The notes under the pieces were generated by a model, which saw only the letters and a program-made list of their open reading frames with translations, was not told the DNA's origin and did not search any database. A DNA stretch of 64,000 bases, from positions 434,001-498,000 of the forward strand of contig JAGYIF010000001.1 in the NCBI GenBank assembly GCA_018402735.1, given 5' to 3'. Shown here piece after piece: positions 3,451 through 25,795 of this stretch. The position numbers and the translations under genes were made by a program. Each line of letters starts with the position of its first letter. Within the stretch, counting starts at the first letter, position 1. This stretch comes from Pelagibacteraceae bacterium. GTDB taxonomy: Bacteria; Pseudomonadota; Alphaproteobacteria; Pelagibacterales; Pelagibacteraceae.

Positions 3451-4422
3451 ATGAATAATAAAAAAATAATTTATACAGCAAAACAAGTAATTAACTCTGA
3501 AATCACAGCATTGAAAAAATTATCAAGTTCTCTTGATGCATCTTTTTGTCAGGCAATACAATTACTATATAAAATTAAAGGCAGGGTTATTTGTTGTGGG
3601 GTAGGAAAATCAGCAAAAATTTTAGAAAAAATTTCAAGCACACTGTCTTCCATAGGTGTGTCTAGTTTTACCCTAGACCCAACTGATGCTGGTCATGGTT
3701 CGTTAGGGGCAATACAAAAAAATGATGTGCTTGTGATTGCATCATTTAGCGGTAATAGCACTGAGCTGAATAACATCTTAAAATATGCTAAAAAACTATC
3801 TATTAAAATTATTGGTATTAGCTCAAACACACAGTCTCATTTAATCAAGCTATCTAATGTCAAAATTATAATGCCAAAAGTTGCCGAGGCTGGAAATAAA
3901 AATTTAGATATAATTCCAACTAGCAGCTCTACTAACCTACTAGCACTAGGTGATTGTCTAGCAATTAGTTTGGCAACTAAAAATAACTTTAACAAAAAAA
4001 AATTTGGTGCGCTTCATCCAAGCGGCTCCCTCGGGAAGAATTTATCCGAAATATCAGAAGTTATGATTACTGGAAAAAAAATTCCAGTTGTAAAGGATCA
4101 ATCATCTATTCAAACTATTGTTATTAAAATTTCATCCGGCAGACTTGGTTGTGCCGTAGTAGAGGATAAAACAAAGAAAATATGTGGATTTATATCTGAT
4201 GGAGACATGAATAGAGCGATCAATAAATATAAAAATATATTTAGCAAAAAAGCCAAAGATATAATGTCTAGAAAGCCAAAATCTATTCCTAGCGACTATT
4301 TAATCGTGGATGCTTTGAAGTTGATGAATAAAGAAAAAATAACTGCGCTTTTGGTAACAAAAAACAATAAGTTACAAGGACTAGTGCATATGCACAGTAT
4401 TTTATCTTTTCTGAACTCGTAA
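3451..4422 (+). CDS. kdsD: arabinose-5-phosphate isomerase (KpsF/GutQ family)
   Basis: Converts ribulose-5-phosphate to arabinose-5-phosphate, the first step towards Kdo, the inner-core sugar of LPS. 323 residues: an N-terminal SIS sugar-isomerase domain (about 35-185; GVGKSAKI at 50-57, PTDAGHGSLG at 77-86, ASFSGNSTE at 98-106, FGALHPSGSLGK near 185) followed by two CBS domains (about 205-320). Length and domain order match KdsD. It lies between rnd and lptC with gaps of 2 and 4 bases, so a single LPS-assembly operon is likely. kdsB for the same pathway lies at 52384-53109. Confidence 0.93.
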   Translation: MNNKKIIYTAKQVINSEITALKKLSSSLDASFCQAIQLLYKIKGRVICCGVGKSAKILEKISSTLSSIGVSSFTLDPTDAGHGSLGAIQKNDVLVIASFSGNSTELNNILKYAKKLSIKIIGISSNTQSHLIKLSNVKIIMPKVAEAGNKNLDIIPTSSSTNLLALGDCLAISLATKNNFNKKKFGALHPSGSLGKNLSEISEVMITGKKIPVVKDQSSIQTIVIKISSGRLGCAVVEDKTKKICGFISDGDMNRAINKYKNIFSKKAKDIMSRKPKSIPSDYLIVDALKLMNKEKITALLVTKNNKLQGLVHMHSILSFLNS

Positions 4423-6367: not shown

Positions 6368-8341
6368 ATGGCAAACAAAAAGTGGTTTTTACCCTCAAAT
6401 AATATTTCTATAAACGGAGAAATCAATCTTCCTGGTGATAAATCAATTGGAATTAGATCAATTATTATTCTTTCCCAAAGTTACGGAATTTCAGATGTGC
6501 ACAATGTCTCTGATGGTGAAGATGTGCAAACAGCTATCCAAGCAATTAAAAAATTAAAAGTGCCTATAAAAAAAATAAGTGCAAATAGCTATCGTATTTT
6601 TGGTCTTGGAATAGGTTTCAAAAAATTCAAAGGAACAATTAATTTTAATAATAGTGGCACTACATTAAGATTGTTAACAGGCCTCTTAGCGACGTCACCA
6701 GTGGATGCAAAATTAATTGGTGATCACTCTCTATCAAAAAGACCTATTCGTATTATTTCGTTGATGGAACAATTTTTTGCAAGTTTTTACCCAAAAAATA
6801 AAAATTTCTTGCCCATACGTGTCACTGGTTTTGGAGAGTCGGCACAAACAGAAATTACGATAGACAAACCTTCAGCACAGATAGTATCCGCGTGCATTTT
6901 AGCCGGCATGAATAGTCATGGACTAACAACAATTGAAGCCCCTAACGCACAAAGGGATCACACAGAATTAATGCTAAAGCATTTAAAATACCCCATTACT
7001 GTAAAAAATCTTAAGTCAAAAAAAATAATTAAAATCATGGGAAAACAACTCCTTAATGCAGAAAAAAAATATGTTGTTCCTGGCGATCCTTCTTCAGCCG
7101 CTTTTTTAGTTGTTCTCGCACTACTTGCTAAAAATAGCAACTTAGAACTAAATAATGTTCTGTTAAATCCAAAAAGAATTGGCTTCCTTACTGTTTTAAA
7201 AAAAATGGGAGCAACAATAAATATTAAAAATAAACAAATAAGATATGGAGAGGTTACGGGAACTATTCAAGTTCGATCTTCTACTCTCCAAGGAATTAAA
7301 ATTGATAAATCGATTATCCCAAATATTATAGATGAAGTTCCAATTTTAATGGTGGCTGCGTCTTTTGCTAAGGGAGAAACTTTTTTTCCCAATCTTGATG
7401 AATTACGAATTAAAGAATCGGACAGATTATCTGTGATGGAAAACAACCTTACACAAGTAGGTGTTTTGGTTAAACGAAAAAATAATGATCTGACTGTTCT
7501 GGGACTTGGAGAGCAATTTTACTCTAGCAAATTAATTACGATTGATAGCTTTAAAGATCATCGTATTGCCTTAAGTTTTGCAGTTATGGCAATGGCTTCG
7601 CAAAAGAAAATTTTAATCAAAGATTTTGATTCTGCGAATGTAAGTTACCCCACATTCTTAAGTGACATAAAAAAAATTATAAACAAACAATCTAAACAGG
7701 TTATTATAGGAATGGATGGCCCTGTGGGATCAGGAAAAACTTCTTTAGCCAAATATGCGGTATCTAAAACAAAAAATAGTTTATTTTTAGATTCTGGATT
7801 GCTATATCGATTTCTAGCTAAAAAACATCTTGCAACAAAAAATAAAAAAATAAATGAAAAGTATTTAGTTAGAATTGCTAAAACTATTACTTTAAAAGAT
7901 CTTCAGTCATCTGACTTACATGCTCAAAAAATAAATGCCTTAGTCTCAACCATTGCAAAAATACAAAGCATTAGATCGGCATTGCTACCTGTTCAAAGAA
8001 ACATCATTTTCAATAATCCGTATCAATATGTTTTTGTCAGTGGTAGAGATATTAATTCTAAAGTAGCTCAAAATGCAGACTTAAAAATTTATATTGATGC
8101 ACCTATCAAAGTTAGAGCGCATAGAAGATTTTTGGAACTTAAGAAAAAAAACCCAAATATTTCCTATCAAGAAGTTCTTAAAAGTGTTGTTAATAGAGAT
8201 TATCTGGACAAAACAAGGTCAAATAGCCCTTTAATCAAAACGAAAGACTCTGTCTTGATTAATAATACGGGACGCAATATAAGATCCACCTTTGTAAAAA
8301 TACAAAAGTTAATAAGAAAGGTTCAGAGTAAACAATATTGA
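6368..8341 (+). CDS. aroA-cmk: bifunctional EPSP synthase - cytidylate kinase fusion
   Basis: One continuous 657-codon frame joins two enzymes usually encoded side by side. Residues about 1-440 are 3-phosphoshikimate 1-carboxyvinyltransferase (LPGDKSIGIRS; FNNSGTTLRLLTG; RDHTE; IIDEVPILMVAA; ELRIKESDRL; DHRIALSF), step six of the shikimate pathway. Residues about 445-657 are cytidylate kinase (P-loop DGPVGSGKT, LDSGLLYR, SGRDINSKVAQ), which phosphorylates CMP and dCMP. RDHTE and NPKR resemble the class II EPSP synthases, but glyphosate behaviour cannot be predicted. The GDKSISHR motif reads GDKSIGIR. The stop overlaps the TTG start of rpsA (TTGA), so the usual aroA-cmk-rpsA order is kept. Confidence 0.92.
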   Translation: MANKKWFLPSNNISINGEINLPGDKSIGIRSIIILSQSYGISDVHNVSDGEDVQTAIQAIKKLKVPIKKISANSYRIFGLGIGFKKFKGTINFNNSGTTLRLLTGLLATSPVDAKLIGDHSLSKRPIRIISLMEQFFASFYPKNKNFLPIRVTGFGESAQTEITIDKPSAQIVSACILAGMNSHGLTTIEAPNAQRDHTELMLKHLKYPITVKNLKSKKIIKIMGKQLLNAEKKYVVPGDPSSAAFLVVLALLAKNSNLELNNVLLNPKRIGFLTVLKKMGATINIKNKQIRYGEVTGTIQVRSSTLQGIKIDKSIIPNIIDEVPILMVAASFAKGETFFPNLDELRIKESDRLSVMENNLTQVGVLVKRKNNDLTVLGLGEQFYSSKLITIDSFKDHRIALSFAVMAMASQKKILIKDFDSANVSYPTFLSDIKKIINKQSKQVIIGMDGPVGSGKTSLAKYAVSKTKNSLFLDSGLLYRFLAKKHLATKNKKINEKYLVRIAKTITLKDLQSSDLHAQKINALVSTIAKIQSIRSALLPVQRNIIFNNPYQYVFVSGRDINSKVAQNADLKIYIDAPIKVRAHRRFLELKKKNPNISYQEVLKSVVNRDYLDKTRSNSPLIKTKDSVLINNTGRNIRSTFVKIQKLIRKVQSKQY

Positions 8342-22948: not shown

Positions 22949-24379
22949 TTAAGTTCCACAAAATGTCTTATATGTTTTGTCTTTTTTAGGATCTGGTTCC
23001 AAATAAGATGCATGCTGTTCATCTTCCTTGTATGGATCTTCCAATACTTTAAGCAAAGTTTGAAGTGGTTCAAGGTTATTCGTATGGGCAGCTTCTAAAG
23101 ACTCCTCTACTTTGTGATTTCTTGGAATAAACACTGGATTAAACTGTCTCATTTTCAAGACATTTGGTTTTCTTGCTTCAAATATTTTGTACCAAACTTC
23201 AAATTCTTTGTTTTGATATTGAGTATTAAATTTTTTATTCATTAATGCTCGAAAGGTATTAGTGTAATCTGCTTGGTTATTGTTCATCCAAAGCAATAAT
23301 TCTTCAATCAGCAAATTATCTTCTTCATTATCACCCTCTATTCCCAGTTTTCCTCTCATCATTGCTAAACTTTTTTGATGGTAGATTTTGCTAAATGTTT
23401 CTATTTCTGTTTCTAAAATCTCAACAGCTTTATCGGTGTTCACATCAATCATTGGAATTAGAGTTTCTGCAAATCTTGCCATATTCCACTTTGCAATATT
23501 TGCTTGGTTTCCATAGGCGTATCTGCCTTGATGATCTATGGAGCTAAATTTAGTTTTAGGATCATAGCTATCCATAAAAGCACATGGACCATAATCAATA
23601 CTTTCACCAGATATCGCAACATTATCAGTATTAAGAACACCGTGAATAAAGCCAATACGCATATAATGTACTATTAAATCTATGTGTCTGTTCATTACTT
23701 TTCGAAACAGTTGAAGAGCTGGAATTTTTTCCCCTTTTAATTCTGGATAATGACGATGGATACAATACATAATCAATTCTTGGAGAAGATTTATATTTTT
23801 TTGAGCAGCAACAAATTCAAAAGTACCAACCCGAATATGACTTGCAGCAACTCTTGTTAAAATAGCTCCTGGTAACAAAGTTTCTCTCATTACATTTTGT
23901 CCTGTTGAAACTACAGCTAAACTTCTTGTGGTTGGAATATGTAAATGATGAATGGCCTCGCTAATAATATACTCACGAAGCATTGGTCCTAACGCTGCTC
24001 TACCATCTCCATTTCTTGAGTAAGGAGTAATTCCAGAGCCTTTAAATTGAATATCAAATCTTTTTTTATCTAAAGTAATGTGCTCGCCCAATACTATGGC
24101 CCTACCATCTCCAAGCATTACAAAATGACCAAATTGGTGACCTGCATATGCTTCTGCCCATGGGGTTGTGGTGGATGGGATCATATTTCCTGAAAACATT
24201 AATGCCAAATTTTCTTTGCTTACAGAACTAACATCCAATCCAAGTTCTCTTGCTAATTGTTGATTATATAAAATAATTTTTGGATCTTTAACCGGAACTG
24301 GTGACAGCTTAGAAGCCATCATCTTAGATAAAGTTAAGTAACTATTATCAAAGTTCCATCCAATATTAGAGCTACTCAT
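22949..24379 (-). CDS. selO: SelO/YdiU family protein AMPylase
   Basis: 476-residue pseudokinase-fold enzyme that transfers AMP from ATP to proteins and is linked to redox homeostasis. Conserved segments: MLGDGRAIVLGE, IQFKGSGITPYSRNGDGRAALGPMLREYI split over residues about 105-140, PTTRSLAVV, GFIHGVLNTDN and DYGPCAFMD (catalytic Asp). The C-terminus ends FCGT, keeping the penultimate-region Cys seen in many bacterial SelO proteins. ATG at 24379 is preferred over TTG 24385. The gene begins 9 bases after a small secreted Cys-containing protein and probably shares its transcript. Confidence 0.93.
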   Translation of the reverse strand: MSSSNIGWNFDNSYLTLSKMMASKLSPVPVKDPKIILYNQQLARELGLDVSSVSKENLALMFSGNMIPSTTTPWAEAYAGHQFGHFVMLGDGRAIVLGEHITLDKKRFDIQFKGSGITPYSRNGDGRAALGPMLREYIISEAIHHLHIPTTRSLAVVSTGQNVMRETLLPGAILTRVAASHIRVGTFEFVAAQKNINLLQELIMYCIHRHYPELKGEKIPALQLFRKVMNRHIDLIVHYMRIGFIHGVLNTDNVAISGESIDYGPCAFMDSYDPKTKFSSIDHQGRYAYGNQANIAKWNMARFAETLIPMIDVNTDKAVEILETEIETFSKIYHQKSLAMMRGKLGIEGDNEEDNLLIEELLLWMNNNQADYTNTFRALMNKKFNTQYQNKEFEVWYKIFEARKPNVLKMRQFNPVFIPRNHKVEESLEAAHTNNLEPLQTLLKVLEDPYKEDEQHASYLEPDPKKDKTYKTFCGT

Positions 24380-24388
24380 GAACAATAA

Positions 24389-24628
24389 TTATCCCAATAA
24401 ATCTAAAGCTTCGCTAATTAATTTTTGGCAATCTTCCTTGTTTCCTTCTTTGTGGGCTTGTTGAGCCTGTTCTTTTAAGTCTTTTATTTCTTTAGCTTCT
24501 TCTCGGGTAAGTTGTTTGGTTTCAGCAATTACTTCATCAAGCTGTTTCATTAGATCTAAACAAGAATCTGCCATTCCATAAGAAGAACTTAACAAATATA
24601 AAACTATTACTAAAAATAATTTTTTCAT
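24389..24628 (-). CDS. small secreted helical protein upstream of selO
   Basis: 79 residues with a clear signal peptide (MKKLFLVIVLYLLSSSYGMA) and a mature part of about 58 residues that is charged, Lys/Glu-rich and predicted to be a helical hairpin or coiled coil, with two Cys (SCLDLM near the new N-terminus and EDCQKL near the C-terminus) that could form a disulfide. Periplasmic. No family recognised. Nine bases separate it from selO, so it is probably in the same operon. Confidence 0.7.
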   Translation of the reverse strand: MKKLFLVIVLYLLSSSYGMADSCLDLMKQLDEVIAETKQLTREEAKEIKDLKEQAQQAHKEGNKEDCQKLISEALDLLG

Positions 24629-24699: not shown

Positions 24700-24822
24700 T
24701 TAATCAAAAAGATTGTAAGCCCACCAAATAACCAGTCCGACAGACAAACTCCATAAAAAAATATCTTTTACTTTGTGAATTTTTTTTTGAGAAATAAATG
24801 TACGAAAATAGTTAAGCATCAT
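24700..24822 (-). CDS. 40-residue single-helix membrane protein
   Basis: Frame ATGATG...TAA of 40 codons. The peptide starts MMLNYFRTFISQKK, continues with a basic segment and ends with a hydrophobic helix (IFLWSLSVGLVIWWAYNLF), a positive-inside single-pass layout. Its start overlaps the end of the 60-residue frame at 24812-24994 by 11 bases, which suggests coupled translation. No family recognised. It is the last member of a minus-strand row of micro-genes reaching back to 25437. Confidence 0.5.
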   Translation of the reverse strand: MMLNYFRTFISQKKIHKVKDIFLWSLSVGLVIWWAYNLFD

Positions 24823-24994
24823 GTTGGTAACTAAAAATATACATTACTGAGCTTGTTTTGGAAATGGCTACGCTATGAATATATTTATCTTTTAGCATTT
24901 GCATAAGTTTTGGGCTTATGAATTTTTTAACCTGATCTTCGCTAATATTTTGAATTCGTGAATTTTTAGAGGTTTCTACTTCAATTCGGAACAT
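24812..24994 (-). CDS. 60-residue unknown protein in the micro-gene row
   Basis: Starts at an ATG three bases after the stop of a 34-residue membrane peptide and overlaps the next 40-residue peptide by 11 bases. The product (MFRIEVETSKNSRIQ...) is soluble and mixed-charge, with a predicted strand-helix start (FRIEVET, SEDQVKKFISPKLMQML) and no Cys or membrane helix. No family recognised. The tight spacing on both sides is the main support that it is translated. Confidence 0.5.
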   Translation of the reverse strand: MFRIEVETSKNSRIQNISEDQVKKFISPKLMQMLKDKYIHSVAISKTSSVMYIFSYQHDA

Positions 24995-24997
24995 AAT

Positions 24998-25102
24998 TTA
25001 TTGTTCTTCACTTGGACTCAGACACCAAATCAAAAAAACCATGAATAAAAAAGTTGCAGGCATGCCAAGGCAAAACAGCCATACTCCCGTTTGTGTATCC
25101 AC
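24998..25102 (-). CDS. 34-residue membrane peptide, GTG start
   Basis: GTG start with AAGGA seven bases upstream, then 34 codons to TAA. The peptide is MDTQTGVWLFCLGMP followed by ATFLFMVFLIWCLSPSEEQ: a single hydrophobic helix with two Cys and a short acidic tail. The layout resembles very small accessory subunits of transporters or respiratory enzymes, but I do not recognise a family. It lies three bases before the 60-residue frame. Confidence 0.5.
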   Translation of the reverse strand: MDTQTGVWLFCLGMPATFLFMVFLIWCLSPSEEQ

Positions 25103-25136
25103 TGCTTTTCCTTGGTTAAAATAGTTTTTTGAAAAT

Positions 25137-25229
25137 TTAAGCTTTATTTAGAAAGTCTAACTCTTCTTGGTTATAGGGTATCATATTTGTACTCCAATTA
25201 TACATTTCAATAGTTTTTATTTTATTCAT
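25137..25229 (-). CDS. possible 30-residue peptide
   Basis: ATG (25227-25229) to TAA, 30 codons: MNKIKTIEMYNWSTNM then IPYNQEELDFLNKA. An internal ATG preceded by GGAG at 7 bases would give only the last 15 residues. No hydrophobic helix. It is supported only by its position between two better micro-genes and by the internal ribosome site; it may be a chance frame. Confidence 0.3.
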   Translation of the reverse strand: MNKIKTIEMYNWSTNMIPYNQEELDFLNKA

Positions 25230-25263
25230 TTCACTTTCACACCAAAATTAGGTGATTAAGTGA

Positions 25264-25437
25264 TTAAATTCCTGTTCTTGTTACTAAGTACACAATTAAT
25301 GGCAGACATAAAAATGTAGCCAAAACCATCATCGTCACTAAAACGGACGCTGTCGTTTTAAGAACATTTGTCAGTTTGTATAAAATAAAACTTAGTCGTA
25401 CTGTTTCTGTTCGTGCAATTGTATTCATGCGGTTCAT
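25264..25437 (-). CDS. 57-residue single-helix membrane protein
   Basis: ATG (25437) to TAA, 57 codons. A basic N-terminus (MNRMNTIARTETVRL) leads into one long hydrophobic region (ASVLVTMMVLATFLCLPLIV) and a short polar tail, so a bitopic inner-membrane protein is predicted. No family recognised. It is the first member of the micro-gene row and directly follows, on the minus strand, the structured non-coding stretch 25438-25840, which may be its leader. Confidence 0.5.
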   Translation of the reverse strand: MNRMNTIARTETVRLSFILYKLTNVLKTTASVLVTMMVLATFLCLPLIVYLVTRTGI

Positions 25438-25573: not shown

Positions 25574-25633
25574 TCGCTCTATTCAGATATTATTTAGCTC
25601 CCCTGTTAGATTGGTTCTAATAGAGCGAACCAA
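25574..25633. repeat. two mutually exclusive hairpins
   Basis: TCGCTCTATT (25574-25583) pairs perfectly with AATAGAGCGA (25619-25628). Alternatively TTGGTTC (25611-25617) pairs with GAACCAA (25627-25633). The two pairings share bases, so only one can form at a time, as in switching RNAs. Chance is possible in AT-rich DNA but unlikely for both. Confidence 0.45.
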
Positions 25634-25718: not shown

Positions 25719-25795
25719 TAACTTATTTAGTTTTACCAGTTAACTTCATTTTCTCCCCCGAAAGTTATAATTAGCTGGTAAAATCAAATAAGTTA
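25719..25795. repeat. 21-bp near-perfect inverted repeat
   Basis: The arms 25719-25739 and 25775-25795 (AACTTATTTAGTTTTACCAG against its complement) pair over 21 positions with two mismatches; the 35-base loop contains a smaller TAACTT/AAGTTA hairpin. It lies 46 bases beyond the stop of the zinc-ribbon gene. It lacks a T-run next to the stem on either strand, so it is not a plain intrinsic terminator. Confidence 0.55.

Follow-up and report, generated by a model that had tools for sequence, protein, structure and literature searches.

Four unclassified small genes, and probably a fifth, upstream of selO in a brackish-water SAR11 relative

Do five very short open reading frames in a row upstream of selO encode proteins, and do their products act together? 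The frames lie within a 64,000-nucleotide stretch of DNA (the window) from a 1.32 Mb genome, G000, that is placed in SAR11 subclade IIIa.3, its closest named relatives being the Pelagibacteraceae MAGs CP.31, CP.55 and CP.15. This subgroup includes IMCC9063, CP31 and CP15, with HIMB114 in IIIa.1 (PMC10030771). Few free-living cells have genomes as compact as those of SAR11, so a small gene retained across species is probably useful to the cell.

We compared G000 with five congeners, G001 to G005 (n = 6 for the IIIa.3 set), searching the regions upstream of selO with the peptides by tblastn, and traced the peptides more widely through about 118 family genomes. Genera g6 and g10 we infer to be of LD12 type and of HIMB114 (IIIa.1) type, respectively; the latter includes genome G065. 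LD12 is Fonsibacter, with a genome of 1.16 Mbp (PMC6018831).

Small genes upstream of selO

The locus contains four real, previously unclassified tiny genes upstream of selO, and probably a fifth that encodes 15 residues. The original prediction described five minus-strand frames of 57, 30, 34, 60 and 40 codons, and all five are found where it placed them (Table 1; as drawn there, the 30-codon frame spans 25137–25229 and the 40-codon frame 24700–24822). The 3-base gap between the 34- and 60-codon frames and, for the frames as drawn, the 11-base overlap of the 60- and 40-codon frames are also correct. The AAGGA site is present as well; six bases separate it from the GTG of the 34-codon frame.

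Table 1. Features of the selO-upstream region, in window coordinates
Feature	Position	Strand	Conservation or support
Hairpin, apical TTTTCTCCCC[CA]GAAAGTT invariant	25719–25795	+	a single strong copy at the same site in five of the six IIIa.3 genomes
Second hairpin, similar build, C-rich apical loop AGCUCCCCUGUU	25575–25627	+	same in G001; z = -4.3
p57, 57 residues, polar N terminus, one predicted C-terminal membrane helix	25264–25437	-	open in G001 and G004
p15, 15-codon frame MIPYNQEELDFLNKA	25137–25184	-	sole conserved part of the 30-codon frame
AAGGA ribosome-binding site of p34	25109–25113	-	AACCAAGGA conserved in G000, G001 and G004
p34, predicted 34-residue single-helix membrane peptide, GTG start	24998–25102	-	all six IIIa.3 genomes and G065
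p60, 60-residue soluble protein, predicted beta-beta-alpha-alpha-beta-beta	24812–24994	-	all six IIIa.3 genomes and G065
p40, 38–39-residue peptide, one predicted C-terminal membrane helix	24700–24819	-	p60/p40 overlap in five of six IIIa.3 genomes
p79, small protein between the row and selO, predicted signal peptide, two cysteines	24389–24628	-	G000, G001 and G004 only
selO, protein adenylyltransferase (anchor gene)	22949–24385	-	PF02696, E = 5.8e-108

Chance alone produces many frames this short in such AT-rich sequence (8 kb contains 77 with 25 codons or more), and conservation is thus the real test. The original prediction named missing conservation or internal stop codons in close relatives as grounds for refutation. 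The 57-, 34-, 60- and 40-codon frames withstand this check, being open in relatives; the 30-codon frame as drawn does not, since TAG interrupts its first half in G001 and G004. Substitutions were counted in all three frames, and the pN/pS ranges set aside pairs without replacement changes. True-frame values are 0.25–0.47 for p34, 0.21–0.46 for p60 and 0.12–0.37 for p79, a sixth small gene of the row that was absent from the first description. For p40 they run from 0.11 to 0.47 in closer pairs and reach 0.78 for G000–G003, while p57 gives 0.41–0.66, with the weakest codon signal of the set against G004 (0.66). Both wrong frames of the better-sampled p34 and p60 pairs yield values near 1 or above. 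Pooled changes at codon positions 1, 2 and 3 number 61, 43 and 95 for G000–G004 (p = 3e-5) and 11, 9 and 24 for G000–G001 (p = 0.011); for p34, p60 and p40 together, the G000–G003 counts are 60, 32 and 75 (p = 2e-4). Judged by open frames in relatives and this third-position excess, the four frames are real genes.

Some members of the row are more narrowly distributed. p57 aligns in G001 (89%) and G004 (42%), was not found upstream of selO in G003 and G005, and is probably absent from G002. p15 is kept in G000, G001, G004 and G002 and in no other genome of a 147-genome pattern scan. Third positions account for six of its seven counted changes, too few for a test of its own, and we infer that it is translated. 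Both p57 and p15 appear to be lineage-specific additions. In G002, p15 (the MIPY frame; L043, about 3516–3560, plus strand; G002:C46:59015 onwards) follows the larger hairpin of Table 1 by about 20 bases and, relative to selO, is on the other strand: although its peptide is conserved, this tiny gene has changed place. p79 is 94% identical in G001 and 52% in G004 and has no family at cut-off in Pfam or NCBIfam. Its resemblance to the SoxAX-binding protein family NF052674 is weak (16.3 bits against a 95-bit cut-off), and this assignment was rejected.

Between p40 and p79, contig C17 of G001 (L032, about 6870–7150) carries an inserted gene for a DUF2798 membrane protein (PF11391, E = 8e-11) that is absent from G000. 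The stretch upstream of selO, a region of gene turnover, also holds a gene for an FAD-dependent oxidoreductase in G002; a zinc-ribbon gene there is missing from G003 and G005.

The p34, p60 and p40 genes

The firm core of the row is the p34/p60 pair, usually joined by p40 overlapping p60. p34 and p60 are present in all five congeners, in G002 on another contig, and p60 begins 2–5 bases after p34 in every genome with both (the six IIIa.3 genomes and G065). The GTG start of p34 is kept in G001 and G004. p40 directly follows p60 in four of the five congeners, hence in five of the six IIIa.3 genomes counting G000; G002 has a 30-residue p40 relative upstream of selO, apart from p34/p60. Because the p40 start common to the five overlap-keeping genomes is the second ATG (24819), the overlap with p60 that is conserved there measures 8 bases rather than 11. 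In G065, a MAG of IIIa.1 type, the p34/p60 pair lies elsewhere in the genome, beside different genes. The operon-like spacing first remarked on is conserved, overlap included, but a five-member operon is not supported, as its members are not kept as one set. Nor is a complex of five members supported, given the absence of p57 from G003, G005 and probably G002, the other-strand position of p15 in G002, and the separation of p34/p60 from p40 in G002 and G065.

The expectation of three single-helix membrane peptides agrees with prediction, which gives one strongly hydrophobic stretch each to p57, p34 and p40. For p60, an AlphaFold2 model built from three input sequences confidently predicts a beta2-alpha2-beta2 arrangement (pLDDT 90.5). 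A Foldseek search with this model returned nothing at E ≤ 0.001, and a second look gave a best Z of 4.0, which is uninformative. In a profile comparison, p60 aligns over 44 columns with a 68-residue SAR11 protein, MFKVRVVGKN... (HIMB114; G000:C1:218368–218571), at 79% probability and E = 1.6e-5 from shallow alignments. The two probably belong to the same small fold family, although the 68-residue protein is at a different locus, shares 20% identity and itself lacks a Pfam family.

Searches of Pfam, NCBIfam, PHROGs and PDB sequences returned no family for p34, p60, p40 or p57. OadG, the gamma subunit of sodium-pump decarboxylases, was considered for p34 and rejected: the helix aligns weakly (PF04277, 12.7 bits against 27; TIGR01195, 15.3 against 36.05), and no decarboxylase gene adjoins p34.

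Among the roughly 118 family genomes, the p34–p60 pair is confined to the six IIIa.3 genomes and G065. Peptides of 32 residues resembling p34 occur in nine g6 genomes and, at the loci checked, lie 6–10 bases after a gene for a 152-residue zinc-ribbon protein; as the comparison with p34 spans 32 hydrophobic-peptide residues, part of the similarity could be due to convergence. p40-like peptides of 26–38 residues (W..F..L..W..YHL) end other small-gene rows in g10 genomes. Two HIMB114-type loci (L142 and L141) carry a conserved row of 28, 68, 65, 137 and 26 codons that includes relatives of p60 and p40, and those of its members that were scanned have no Pfam family. No relatives of p34 or p40 were found outside the Pelagibacteraceae in 337 Alphaproteobacteria genomes, and IMG/VR scans gave none of p60, p34 or p40 in viral contigs.

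Hairpins beside the row

On the plus strand, a hairpin of about 77 bases with a CUCCCC-type apical loop lies between the small genes and the upstream zinc-ribbon and p108 genes. Its stem shows compensatory changes, with six double-sided pairs even though the alignment misplaces G002 by a base. A covariance model recovers a single strong copy per genome in five IIIa.3 genomes, with a second, weak match in G005, and nothing convincing in the rest of the family; in G004 the region is lost at a contig end. Folding is better on the plus strand (z = -8.1 versus -5.2), and in G003 and G005 the hairpin sits between divergent genes. No counterpart of the second hairpin was recovered from G003, G005 or G002; in G000 and G001 the two together could form a two-hairpin small RNA.

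Against Rfam, the larger hairpin has no match at gathering score and otherwise only chance-level ones. An intrinsic terminator was rejected, as on neither strand of the inspected sequences is the stem directly followed by more than four T in a row. Three viral contigs containing the 18-base hairpin core are judged to be chance matches: such numbers are expected for the size of the collection, and those folds that were inspected lack the long outer stem. The element is a candidate new, genus-specific structured RNA, which could be a small RNA or a leader element.

Possible roles and known counterparts

These observations are compatible with a model, to which we assign a probability of roughly 0.5, in which p34, p60 and p40 are small accessory membrane peptides with a soluble partner that act on a larger protein encoded elsewhere. 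The spacing suggests coupled translation of p34 and p60, and in most genomes p40, so that the three would be made together. p34 and p40 are predicted to sit in the inner membrane, and p60 might dock on the cytoplasmic side onto them or their partner. The set would then be an accessory or regulatory module of a larger membrane protein. In favor of such a module, the short p34/p60 spacing is retained in the six IIIa.3 genomes and the IIIa.1-type MAG despite differing flanks; against it, profile searches matched none of the row peptides to known accessory-subunit families, and the three genes are not together in G002 and G065. That same separation lends weight to a close rival, which we consider somewhat less likely: the genes may be independent, with unrelated roles, gathered in a permissive stretch upstream of selO and sharing a transcript without forming a complex. 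Content does vary among the six genomes in the way this predicts (p57, p15 and p79 in some, the DUF2798 gene in G001, the oxidoreductase in G002, no zinc-ribbon gene in G003 and G005), but unrelated genes would not readily account for p34 and p60 staying together in different surroundings, or for a p60/p40 overlap in five of six genomes.

It is quite improbable that p34, p60 and p40 make up an undescribed micro-complex peculiar to the brackish and freshwater SAR11 of subclade III, tied to life at low salinity and tuned by the adjacent lineage-specific small RNA with its C-rich loop. The lie of the region, a conserved structured element with small hydrophobic peptides encoded downstream of it on the other strand, also recalls TimP/TimR, where p57 or p34 would be a toxic membrane peptide repressed by a divergent small RNA from the plus-strand hairpins. 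We regard this as very unlikely, since G002, G003 and G005 retain the hairpin although p57 was not found in them, and p34 occurs in all six IIIa.3 genomes searched, whereas toxins would be expected to show a patchy spread. The least likely reading is that the row consists of chance open frames in AT-rich intergenic DNA, without protein function. Frames this short readily arise at random and the 30-codon frame is indeed broken in relatives, yet p34, p60, p40 and p79 show frame-specific constraint, sequences are conserved over 40–70% identity and p60 has a confidently predicted fold; for p34, p60 and p40 the idea is already largely refuted.

The p34 family is common to brackish IIIa.3 and freshwater LD12 genomes, and the other SAR11 genera searched gave no convincing detection save in one IIIa.1 genome, so that the family offers a specific candidate for a trait of subclade III. 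In other respects the row is a further set of orphan small-protein families, such as are already well known.

Single-helix accessory subunits such as CydX, CcoQ, KdpF and AcrZ are often overlooked by annotation, and p34 and p40 are like them in size and in having one membrane helix. By this analogy, the accessory role for an unlinked transporter or oxidase put forward in the original prediction is plausible, but it has no sequence match to any such subunit: p34, p40, p57 and their relatives gave no Pfam or NCBIfam match to the small oxidase subunits CydX, CcoQ and aa3 subunit IV, in searches whose sensitivity is limited by such short peptides. The row also differs from those systems in that no oxidase, pump or transporter gene lies directly beside it at the IIIa.3 loci examined. 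The hairpin has its nearest counterparts in the structured RNA motifs of Ca. Pelagibacter (PMC2704228). Whereas that survey used HTCC1062 and the present hairpin is found only in IIIa.3 genomes, the motifs are likewise single bulged hairpins that show covariation and lie in SAR11 intergenic DNA.
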